Shown here in pieces: positions 5,803 through 54,340 of a stretch of 64,000 nt of DNA. How positions within the stretch are numbered: position 1 is the first letter of the stretch; each line of letters starts with the position of its first letter. Below the pieces are notes generated by a model. It was not told where the DNA came from. It searched no databases and was given only the letters and a program-made list of their open reading frames with translations. A program made the translations under genes and the position numbers. Source of the stretch: Bacteroidia bacterium (GTDB taxonomy: Bacteria > Bacteroidota > Bacteroidia > CAIKAF01); contig JAUHWY010000001.1 in assembly GCA_030427255.1 (NCBI GenBank), positions 174,141 to 238,140 on the forward strand, written 5' to 3'.

Positions 5803-5966
5803 GTTTTGGGGGGCTGAACCGCGCTGCCGCCTGCAAATCCTCGCCCGGAGACCACTTGTGGCTAAAGGCTACGGGGTCCCCCAAAAGAATTTGGGGGCCT
5901 CCGTTCCTTAAACCACAAGGGCCTCCGAGCTCCGGGTTTTCCGGCGCATCGCTGCCCCGGGTTCCT
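5803..5966 (-). repeat. GC-rich structured intergenic element E1
   Basis: One of eight related elements in the window, oriented on the minus strand. The long inner stem pairs 5852-5867 with 5906-5921, with a few mismatches and G-T pairs. Inside it, read on the minus strand, is GGAGG, a perfect hairpin of CCCCCAAA with TTTGGGGG, then ACCCCGTAG. The outer edge carries GCCCCCC followed by an A-rich run, which abuts and slightly enters the sufT stop. The opposite edge has CGGAAAACCCGG and GGGGC. Its stem sequence is unrelated to those of the other copies while the apex motifs are shared. Function unknown. Confidence 0.8.
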
Positions 5967-8499: not shown

Positions 8500-8657
8500 A
8501 TTTGGCGCCCGGATGGAACGGAAAGCCCGGAGCACAGCGGCCCCCAAGGCATGAGCTGAGGAGGCCCCGACACTTCGGGGGACCCCGCAAGCCATAGCCT
8601 TGGGAGGCCGGTGTGCGAGGACTTGCAGGGACAGCCGGAAAAGCGCCCCAAAAAAGA
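8500..8657 (+). repeat. GC-rich structured intergenic element E2
   Basis: Plus-oriented copy filling almost the whole gap between topA and the next gene, and the clearest example of the family. The inner stem pairs CCCAAGGC with GCCTTGGG around the apex. The apex is GAGGAGG (8558-8564), hairpin CCCCGA/TCGGGG with loop CACT, then GACCCCGCAA (8581-8590). The edges are GGATGGAACGGAAAGCCCGG on the left and GCGCCCC followed by A6 on the right. TTTGGCGC on the left can pair with GCGCC..CAAA on the right to close the element. Confidence 0.85.
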
Positions 8658-27294: not shown

Positions 27295-27525
27295 TTTTTT
27301 TTGGGCCCCCGGCCTTTTGGGCCCCCGGCCTTTTGGGCCGGCCGGGCTTTCAGCTATAGCCAAAGCATGCCCTTTGCGCAAGGCTTGGGCTGTGGTGGTT
27401 TCGCAAAGCTACACCTCCTCGCCCAAGCCTTGCGTAAAGGCCAAAGCTTTGGGCTATTTGAGACTTTTGATGCGGTGCTATTCTGTCGGCACACCTGCCC
27501 TGACGCTTCGGTCAGGGACTAGGTC
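27295..27525 (-). repeat. GC-rich structured intergenic element E4
   Basis: Minus-oriented copy starting at the stop codon of the PyrR-like gene, with the T8/GGGCCC edge first. The inner stem is the longest in the window: 27358-27389 pairs with 27422-27455 with few mismatches. The apex on the minus strand is GAGGAGG (27414-27420), then TGTAGCTTTGCGAAACCACC, then ACAG. The edge GCTGAAAGCCCGGCCGG is present. The 16-nt unit GGGCCCCCGGCCTTTT occurs twice in tandem at 27303-27334. An extra hairpin, CCCTGAC/GTCAGGG, lies at 27498-27517. Confidence 0.82.
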
Positions 27526-27604: not shown

Positions 27605-27778
27605 GAATGGCCCCCCGGCCGGACGGAGGGCCGTAAGCAGCCCAAAGCCAGCCAAACAGGGAGCGAGGAGGCCCCGAATCATCGGGGACCCCACAGCCCC
27701 TAGTTTGGCGGCTTTGGGCAATTACGACCGGAGGCAGGGCCGTATAGAAAGATGAACTTCTAAAAAGAAGGGCCCAAA
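27605..27778 (+). repeat. GC-rich structured intergenic element E5
   Basis: Plus-oriented copy, back to back with E4, about 80 bp away. The inner stem pairs GCCCAAAGCC..GCCAAAC (27640-27657) with 27697-27719. The apex is GAGGAGG (27665-27671), hairpin CCCCGA/TCGGGG with loop ATCA, then ACCCCACAG (27688-27696), nearly identical to that of E2 although the stems differ. The left edge is ATGGCCCCCCGG (shared with E7) and the right edge is GGGCCC followed by A5. Between E4 and E5 (27526-27604) I see no gene. Confidence 0.83.
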
Positions 27779-27838
27779 AAGACCAATAAAATGTGTAATT
27801 TTATAGGGTAAGCACTATGCCTTACCTGAACCTTGCAG

Positions 27839-40975: not shown

Positions 40976-41011
40976 GCCAAAACACGCAAAAGTAGTGGAG
41001 TTTCCATCGGC

Positions 41012-41160
41012 CCCGGATGGACGCGGTAGCCTGCCGAAGGAGCTGCCCTGTTTTGGCGGATGAGCCGGGCGGAGCTTTGCAAGCCCCGGCGAAGACCAGC
41101 CAAAACGGGCAGGTACTAGGCAGCTAAAGCGGAGAGCCGGATAAGGCCGCCCCTAAAAAA
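41012..41160 (+). repeat. GC-rich structured intergenic element E6
   Basis: Plus-oriented copy between the convergent rimO and cyclophilin genes. The inner stem pairs CTGCCCTGTTTTGGC (41043-41057) with GCCAAAACGGGCAGG (41098-41112). The apex is divergent: GGATGAG, a CGGGC/GCCCCGG-type hairpin containing GGAGCTTTGC, then CGAAGACC. The left edge CCCCGGATGGACGCGG and the right edge AGCGGAGAGCC..GCCCCT followed by A8 match the family. Confidence 0.75.
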
Positions 41161-44584: not shown

Positions 44585-44745
44585 ATTTGGGGTACTTCTT
44601 ACTTAGCCGGTGCCGGTTCCAGCCCTGCTTCAGGCAAAGCTCGTCATGCCGGGGCTTGCGGTGGCTTGCATGCGCGCCGCCTCCTCAGCCGGGCATGTCG
44701 GCCTTGCCTTTTGCATGGCGTCCACCTTACCGGGGGGCCATATTC
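44585..44745 (-). repeat. GC-rich structured intergenic element E7
   Basis: Minus-oriented copy between two minus-strand genes. The inner stem pairs 44632-44654 (starts AGGCAAAGC, ends GCCGGGG) with 44689-44709 (starts CCGGGCATG, ends TTGCCT). The apex on the minus strand is GAGGAGG (44680-44686), a CGGC..GCC hairpin, then ACCGCAAG. The edge ATGGCCCCCCGG is shared with E5. The other edge reads GTACCCCAAAT. Confidence 0.8.
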
Positions 44746-54175: not shown

Positions 54176-54340
54176 AAGATGAACCCGGGGCAGGGATAGA
54201 GCAGGGTAGCCTACCGAAGCCAAGCCGCACATTTTCTTGGGCGGTGGAGGCAGCAATGCCTTGCTGACCCCGCAGGCCCAAAGAAAATGGCGGCTTGGAG
54301 AGGGAGCTACCCGCGAAAGCCCGGCAGCCCCCCAAAAAAA
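54176..54340 (+). repeat. GC-rich structured intergenic element E8
   Basis: Plus-oriented copy between tRNA-Pro and guaB. The inner stem pairs 54220-54242 (starts CCAAGCCGC, ends TTGGGC) with 54276-54298 (starts GCCCAAAG, ends GGCTTGG) with about 20 matches. The apex is GGTGGAGG, hairpin CAGCAA/TTGCTG, then ACCCCGCAG. A second stem joins GGGTAGC with GCTACCC. The edges are GGGGCAGGGATAGAGCAGGG on the left and GCGAAAGCCCGGCAGCCCC followed by A7 on the right. Confidence 0.83.

Follow-up and report, generated by a model that had tools for sequence, protein, structure and literature searches.

A dispersed intergenic hairpin element in a Bacteroidia genus, probably a long-stem relative of Flavo-1

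Two hairpins, E2 and E5, in a 64,000-nt stretch of a Bacteroidia genome (hereafter the window) very probably belong to one dispersed intergenic element, a long-stem relative of Flavo-1, of which this genome (G000) carries at least 140 intergenic copies and which also occurs in the sister species (G004). The best explanation overall, to which we give a probability of about one half, is that this Flavo-1-like element serves as a folded, strand-specific docking site that has spread rarely and has then been kept. All genomes compared are drafts.

A family of hairpins with a shared sub-apical motif

Copies were sought with a core-centred model (R1), which gives 138 matches in the genome, a few of them the reverse strand of the same copy, and with a full-length model (R2) of 152 positions and 57 pairs. 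With 150 candidates scored per genome, R2 has at least 139-150 matches at E<=1e-6 in every one of six congeneric species (G000-G005). The copies in the window and the parts of E2 are as follows.

8504..8652, +: E2 element, full hairpin and start of the CCAAAA tail (R2 122.9 bits; fold z -5.7)
8504..8533, +: E2 basal platform, 5' side: P1 GGCGC (8504-8508), CCGG, ...GGAAAGCCCGGAG
8536..8556, +: E2 variable stem, 5' arm
8560..8564, +: E2 sub-apical motif GGAGG (ortholog changes at 0/85 sites)
8565..8581, +: E2 terminal hairpin CCCCGA-CACT-TCGGGGG, a fast-evolving cap (TTCCCCCCAATAAGGGGAA in the sister species)
8582..8589, +: E2 sub-apical motif ACCCCGCA (from the ortholog comparison)
8590..8612, +: E2 variable stem, 3' arm
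8614..8647, +: E2 basal platform, 3' side, GCGAGGACTTGCA...CCGGAAAAGCGCC
8648..8655, +: E2 3' tail CCAAAAAA (CCAAAA in >80% of copies)
5805..5958, -: E1 element, upstream of and antisense to topA (R2 115 bits; same place in five congeners)
5898-5902 and 5870-5877, -: E1 motif, GGAGG and ACCCCGTA respectively
27609..27780, +: E5 element, longer subtype GGCCCC...GGGCCC AAAA (R1 73.8 bits, R2 50.4 bits)
27667-27671, 27672-27687 and 27688-27695, +: E5 GGAGG, hairpin and ACCCCACA respectively
27333..27476, -: divergent copy, GAGGAGG...ACCACCACA, its core absent in the sister species by synteny (R2 34.2 bits)
41008..41154, +: copy with a different tip, without the GGAGG/ACCCC core (R2 62.1 bits; ortholog in the sister species)
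44602..44733, -: weak candidate copy (R2 19.8 bits; ortholog 23.8 bits)
54187..54336, +: copy downstream of a tRNA gene, core GGAGG-CAGCAATGCCTTGCTG-ACCCCGCA (R2 93.6 bits)

The likeness between the apices of E2 and E5, from which an earlier sequence-only reading had started, is real. Positions 8558-8589 read GA GGAGG CCCCGA CACT TCGGGG G ACCCCGCA and positions 27665-27695 read GA GGAGG CCCCGA ATCA TCGGGG ACCCCACA, and a repeat finder paired the two unprompted (pair D8, 82% over 28 nt). The likeness is not due to chance, since the spaced apex pattern, with two mismatches, has 8 matches genome-wide and 0 in the reversed control. The stem arms adjoining the two apices do differ in sequence, as had been claimed, and both regions fold far better than their shuffles (z -5.7 for E2 and -6.6 for E5). 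The apex of E1 had been described as a different one, which came from reading the wrong strand: the minus strand of 5805-5958 also carries the GGAGG/ACCCCGYA motif, in the order ...GGAAAACCCGGAGC...ACGGAGGCCCCCAAATTCTTTTGGGGGACCCCGTA...GCGAGGATTTGCA..., and only the pairs of the terminal hairpin differ from those of E2 and E5. The window holds further copies that the sequence-only reading had missed, two of them clear (41008-41154 and 54187-54336) and two weaker (27333-27476 and 44602-44733). Beside E5, at 27300-27340 and 27490-27522, lie tandem TTTTGGGCCCCCGGCC units and a CCCTGACGCTTCGGTCAGGG hairpin, where the sequence is very different in the sister species.

Anatomy and covariation

Every copy examined folds as one long hairpin. 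Most are 144-149 nt long, with a few of 166-174 nt, and they have sharp ends (SCGSC...GCSGC-CCAAAA), terminating in CCAAAA. The two arms measure 58.4 +/- 1.3 and 62.2 +/- 1.2 nt, and the tip varies from 16 to 29 nt. From base to tip the element has four layers: a conserved basal platform made of a GC closing stem, an A-rich bulge and short helices between small internal loops; a stem of fixed length and free sequence; a sub-apical two-bulge motif in which GGAGG pairs with (A)CCCC and is followed on that side by GYA; and a variable, exchangeable terminal hairpin.

An alignment of 43 divergent copies with MAFFT and RNAalifold recovered only P1, because the variable stems misalign, and it was replaced by a structure voted from single folds. 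With the consensus voted from single folds of the same copies, the percentage of paired positions is biased and the covariation measures less so: double-sided change is seen at 50 of the 57 pairs among the 43 copies, in 482 cells against 187 +/- 11 in shuffles, and the covariation score is 0.440, compared with 0.144 when shuffled and 0.10-0.17 when the structure is slid by one. For example, pair 5-169 in P1 is GC in 23 copies and CG in 20.

The pairing changes also carry information on strand. Single changes between orthologs lead to G.U in 24 cases and to A.C in 7, and the variable stems of the G000 and G004 copies contain 25 G.U against 6 A.C. Initial counts over all 43 copies were balanced (G.U:A.C 87:87 and 30:26), the A.C cells coming mostly from other species, where internal loops are asymmetric or columns are misaligned. 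In 17 of 20 elements, the plus strand folds better than the minus strand. Together with the preference for G.U over A.C, this points to one strand that folds, as RNA or as single-stranded DNA; for the G.U preference, RNA is at least as good an explanation as single-stranded DNA.

Conservation of the parts

Conservation is distributed very unevenly over the element. Among 30 copies from G000 and its sister species, the information content per column is 1.84 bits in GGAGG, 1.54 in ACCCCGYA, 1.61 in the tail, about 1.0 in the basal platform, 0.85 in the terminal hairpin and about 0.5 in the variable stem, most of these copies having been found with the core-centred model, so that the comparison of orthologs with G004 is the less biased measure. 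Between G000 and G004, GGAGG is unchanged (0/85 sites) and CCCCGYA is changed at 4 of 119 sites; the stems change at 4-6% of sites, the base at 6-9%, the terminal hairpin at 15.6% (49/314) and the flanks at 22-33%. Within the element, constraint is therefore weakest in the terminal hairpin, which had been taken for the recognised part. Changes in this tip come as compensated blocks: CCCCGACACTTCGGGG in E2 has become TTCCCCCCAATAAGGGGAA in the sister species, and E1 behaves alike. Several copies, fetched because R1 had missed them, carry the tip GCGACC-N3-GGAAGC instead, as do the Flavobacteriaceae copies. As such tips occur as well and tips are replaced in the sister species, the CCCCGA/TCGGGG tip common to E2 and E5 is one of several caps.

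The idea of a conserved core on a variable stem thus holds in part. The sub-apical GGAGG/ACCCCGYA is indeed the most conserved part, and the comparison of apex with stems over the 30 copies places it above the stems; the terminal hairpin CCCCGA...TCGGGG, which had been counted with the core, changes fastest and reaches only 0.85 bits. Nor does the stem merely present the core, as had been supposed: its length is fixed, its pairing is kept by compensation, and the base is conserved and common to Flavo-1. In the middle stem, sequence varies while pairing and a constant length are kept.

Whole copies are conserved beyond their surroundings, with 93% identity in 20 orthologous elements against 75% in their flanks. 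The element upstream of and antisense to topA is present in all six species (G000, G004, G001, G002, G003 and G005), yet TopA of G000 is only 66-67% identical to that of G001, G002, G003 and G005. Positions so well conserved over such a long time speak against mobility of most copies.

Kinship with Flavo-1

The element is a long-stem relative of Flavo-1 and no formal member of that family: bridging copies match both the R2 and the Flavo-1 model, and the copies of the window lie below Rfam detection. The Rfam model gives no Flavo-1 match in the window and none at E<=5 for E2; on 20 G000 copies it gives none either, save a 21.7-bit match beside one copy, and the window's copies fail the Flavo-1 (RF01705) gathering cut-off of 42 bits. 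In a sample of the phylum (n=198), in which Flavo-1 exceeds its cut-off in 21 genomes, copies of the element also occur in a few Flavobacteriaceae-like genomes. Bridging copies there score 51.7-60.7 bits with R2 and 31.6-37.1 bits with Flavo-1 over the same span. Two copies in another genome, G008, lie above the Rfam cut-off (65.6 and 55.8 bits), and the latter (L191) is also matched by R2 at 39 bits.

Alignment of the bridging copies to both models reveals the basal helix and loop architecture and the conserved letters of Flavo-1. The two share the base CCccGAUuGaAGcGGAAauCC ... GauUguAgCGgAaAGCggGA and the A-rich bulge before the closing stem, and both are intergenic in Bacteroidetes, with many copies per genome and no fixed gene context. 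They differ in length, about 150 nt in the element against about 80 in Flavo-1, and in the long GC-rich stem of fixed length and the conserved sub-apical GGAGG/ACCCCGYA of the element. In place of the short Flavo-1 form with a simple distal stem, we find 144-149 nt with a sub-apical motif, alongside a few short forms in the same genome (L186). A third Flavo-1 form, with a short stem and an extra 3' hairpin (GCGTGAGGGATAGCAGCGGAAAGCC...GGATAGCCCGACCC...GGGGCACGCCC), is seen at L186 (G000:C14:58448-58527, minus strand), at L185 in G004 and at L173.

Flavo-1 has been listed as a likely RNA without a cis-regulatory role (Weinberg et al. 2010, PMC2864571). In F. psychrophilum, Flavo-1 matches lie sense or antisense to transcribed regions, with many outside them, and the transcriptome study gave no clue to the function of Flavo-1 (PMC9723704). 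This placement matches the random orientation of the element described below.

Orientation and gene context

Copies are intergenic and occur in all four arrangements relative to their neighbours (+- 20, -- 14, -+ 13, ++ 11), and those antisense to both neighbours are conserved as well as sense ones. No replication-strand bias is found on the 1.57-Mb contig (27 + / 36 -). The 5' flank is the most divergent part, and no promoter signature is found there, the Bacteroidetes promoter TAnnTTTG lying upstream of 3 of 39 elements compared with 1-5 in controls. On the 3' side, positions +3 to +6 are 82-89% A; an intrinsic terminator was considered and rejected, as the hairpin is followed by an A-run and not a U-run.

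Tight head-to-head pairs of elements, with their 5' ends facing across a short spacer, are seen at L180 (3974-4273), L181 (991-1360), G004:C1:1102091-1102337, C1:1306360-1306822 and C13:325471-325919; in two species such a pair lies upstream of topA. That such pairs are transposon ends was rejected as a general rule, their interiors carrying housekeeping-like genes.

Spread, ends and junctions

Recent spread is visible in three copies (G000 C36:7014, C36:8026 and C7:9681) that are about 97% identical and lie in unrelated flanks; the element has therefore spread as a discrete unit. Their identity starts about 9 nt before the base and stops in the A-run. C36:7014 and C36:8026 form direct repeats that enclose an NTP_transf_2/HepT gene pair, and a HipA/HTH pair in G004 lies between two copies in direct repeat. 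Genes and elements are co-oriented in both cases, and both cargo pairs are toxin-antitoxin modules. Accessory DNA is seen between elements where the species lose homology, namely NTP_transf_2/HepT, HipA/HTH and a 22-kb block (G000:C36:5355-8170; G000:C42:10253-33006 versus G004:C12:516906-519315). Both species share the element and its 3' flank at the C42/C12 locus, where homology stops exactly at the 5' end of the element.

Breaks of homology cluster at this end. Of 38 orthologous elements, 10 have a homology break at most 30 nt from their 5' end and 2 have one that close to their 3' end (one-sided binomial test, p about 0.02, our own arithmetic). Intergenic space is usually larger on the 5' side than on the 3' side, and this alone makes alignment breaks more likely at the 5' end. 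One of the ten 5' breaks and one of the two 3' breaks are a transposon-like repeat of 146-150 nt, and a simple repeat accounts for the remaining 3' break, so that 9 breaks against 0 are left without these. In about half of the cases homology resumes further along the locus, and one break is a small transposon insertion; the breaks without resumption inside the fetched DNA are L009, L016, L026, L035 and L233. In the comparison with the sister species, we saw neither a target-site duplication nor a clean empty site of the element itself, and the best case of presence and absence (27333-27476) is a messy 80-nt loss in the sister species.

The repeat of 146-150 nt is a second dispersed family, with terminal inverted repeats GAGACCGTTGATGCGTTGTG / CGCAACAACGGTTTC. 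It is found at L024 (1639-1784) and L232 (1841-1990), with similar copies in G004 after E41 (C13, about 300170) and at L010. The sister species shows empty sites for it that are clean or nearly so. Its insertions lie about 25 nt or less from a Flavo-1-like element, and 5 of 39 elements have its end motif no more than 500 nt away. At L233 (3396-3708, in G000:C17), a long TGATGAATGGTAAA-type minisatellite stands beside an element and measures 313 nt compared with 33 nt in the sister species.

Comparison with known repeat systems

ERIC/NEMIS-type repeats are intergenic hairpins of 130-170 nt found in either orientation. The element is likewise a long intergenic hairpin in either orientation, and it differs in host phylum and sequence and in that its copies are mutually very divergent and its orthologs strongly conserved. 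With attC sites the likeness concerns only the way of working: structure is conserved, stem sequence is free, the terminal structure is variable, and direct repeats of the element flank toxin-antitoxin genes. The ends of the element lack RYYYAAC/GTTRRRY core boxes, however, and its copies are dispersed rather than gathered in one array.

REPs are 20-40 bp long and carry a GTAG or CGTC tag (PMC3733652). The element resembles them as a high-copy, intergenic, imperfect hairpin, some copies of which adjoin a Y1 transposase gene; it is far longer, has no GTAG/CGTC tag at its foot and is retained in two species that have no Y1 gene. In three of about seven groups of Y1_Tnp (HUH) genes, an element lies a few hundred nt away or less (loci L112, L115, L113, L117 and L116), an enrichment that is weak (p about 0.02, our own arithmetic). 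At L112, tandem short CCCCTTCGGGGTCGG-type hairpins stand between the Y1_Tnp gene and the element. G001 and G005 have no Y1_Tnp gene, yet at least 145 and at least 150 copies respectively, so a Y1 transposase is not needed to keep the elements. A reverse transcriptase was also considered as partner; there is one gene in each of two species, at coordinates not near elements, and among the Y1_Tnp and reverse transcriptase candidates no protein partner was found.

Possible roles of the element

There are several possible explanations for these observations. Somewhat tentatively, we propose a putative strand-specific, folded protein-docking site that has been spread and retained like REP or attC hairpins. 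One strand would fold while single-stranded, and the base and the sub-apical motif, held by the stem at a fixed distance, would form a docking surface for a protein; the sequence of the stem would be free provided that pairing holds, and the tip would act as a cap. New copies would arise rarely, as discrete units of about 160 nt at fresh intergenic places, and would then be kept by selection, and accessory DNA, for instance toxin-antitoxin modules, may join at the 5' ends of elements, which would act as boundaries. This mode would resemble that of REP or attC single-strand hairpins more than that of a conventional transcribed sRNA. Random orientation, the lack of promoters, discrete spread and the clustering of junctions lead us to weigh single-stranded DNA slightly above RNA as the acting form, and the G.U preference and the view taken by Rfam still speak for the RNA reading. 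Beyond the observed copies, structure, conservation, recent spread with sharp ends and clustered homology breaks, we infer three things: that a protein docks, that the acting form is single-stranded DNA, and that recombination takes place.

It is possible, if not what we would ourselves favour, that each copy is instead a gene for a structured regulatory or scaffold RNA of about 150 nt and of the Flavo-1 kind, in which case one RNA-binding protein would recognise the base and the sub-apical motif and the copies would raise dosage or carry individual stems. Compensatory change, G.U over A.C, the better plus-strand fold in 17 of 20, the conservation of each copy beyond its flanks and the filing of Flavo-1 as sRNA by Rfam all agree with this, against which stand the missing promoter signature, the 5' flank as the most divergent part and, in F. 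psychrophilum, Flavo-1 matches that favour neither strand of transcribed regions and in many cases lie elsewhere (PMC9723704). A rather unlikely extension of the DNA reading makes Flavo-1 elements strand-specific single-strand DNA recombination sites and not sRNA genes. Cargo with one element would join the 5' end of a resident copy, and toxin-antitoxin or other cargo carried in circles or segments would give the co-oriented direct repeats around it, in the manner of integron cassettes yet dispersed over the chromosome, with a putative recombinase; selection on each copy is unexpected if the copies were only recombination sites.

That the element is REP-like and mobilised by a RAYT/Y1 transposase is improbable. 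The neighbouring Y1_Tnp genes in three of about seven groups, the high copy number, the intergenic imperfect hairpin and the discrete spread would suit it, and it is contradicted by the abundance of copies in G001 and G005 (each at least 145) without Y1_Tnp, by a length unlike that of 20-40 bp REPs and the missing GTAG/CGTC tag (PMC3733652), and by the weakness of the enrichment near Y1 genes. A cis-acting mRNA element for 3' end protection, attenuation or termination, which an intergenic location often near gene ends might suggest, is highly improbable: orientation is random to both neighbours, which largely refutes it, copies antisense to both are as conserved as sense ones, and the A's after the hairpin, in place of U's, mean that it is no intrinsic terminator. 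Least probable of all are old, functionless inverted repeats made palindromic by replication slippage or template switching. The block replacement of terminal hairpins does resemble template switching, but unpaired motifs, bulges, total length and the CCAAAA tail are conserved as well, identity is 93% in the element against 75% in the flanks, and in the ortholog comparison the unpaired motif positions do not diverge equally with the flanks.

Flavo-1 has had no function assigned since 2010. Here, each genome of one genus has at least 140 long copies with strong covariation, which supply a clear anatomy, ortholog pairs, recent sharp-ended copies and insertion junctions; with all of these, one can test directly whether the element is an RNA gene or a DNA site. 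Should the DNA reading hold, a common flavobacterial repeat would be a site of gene capture.
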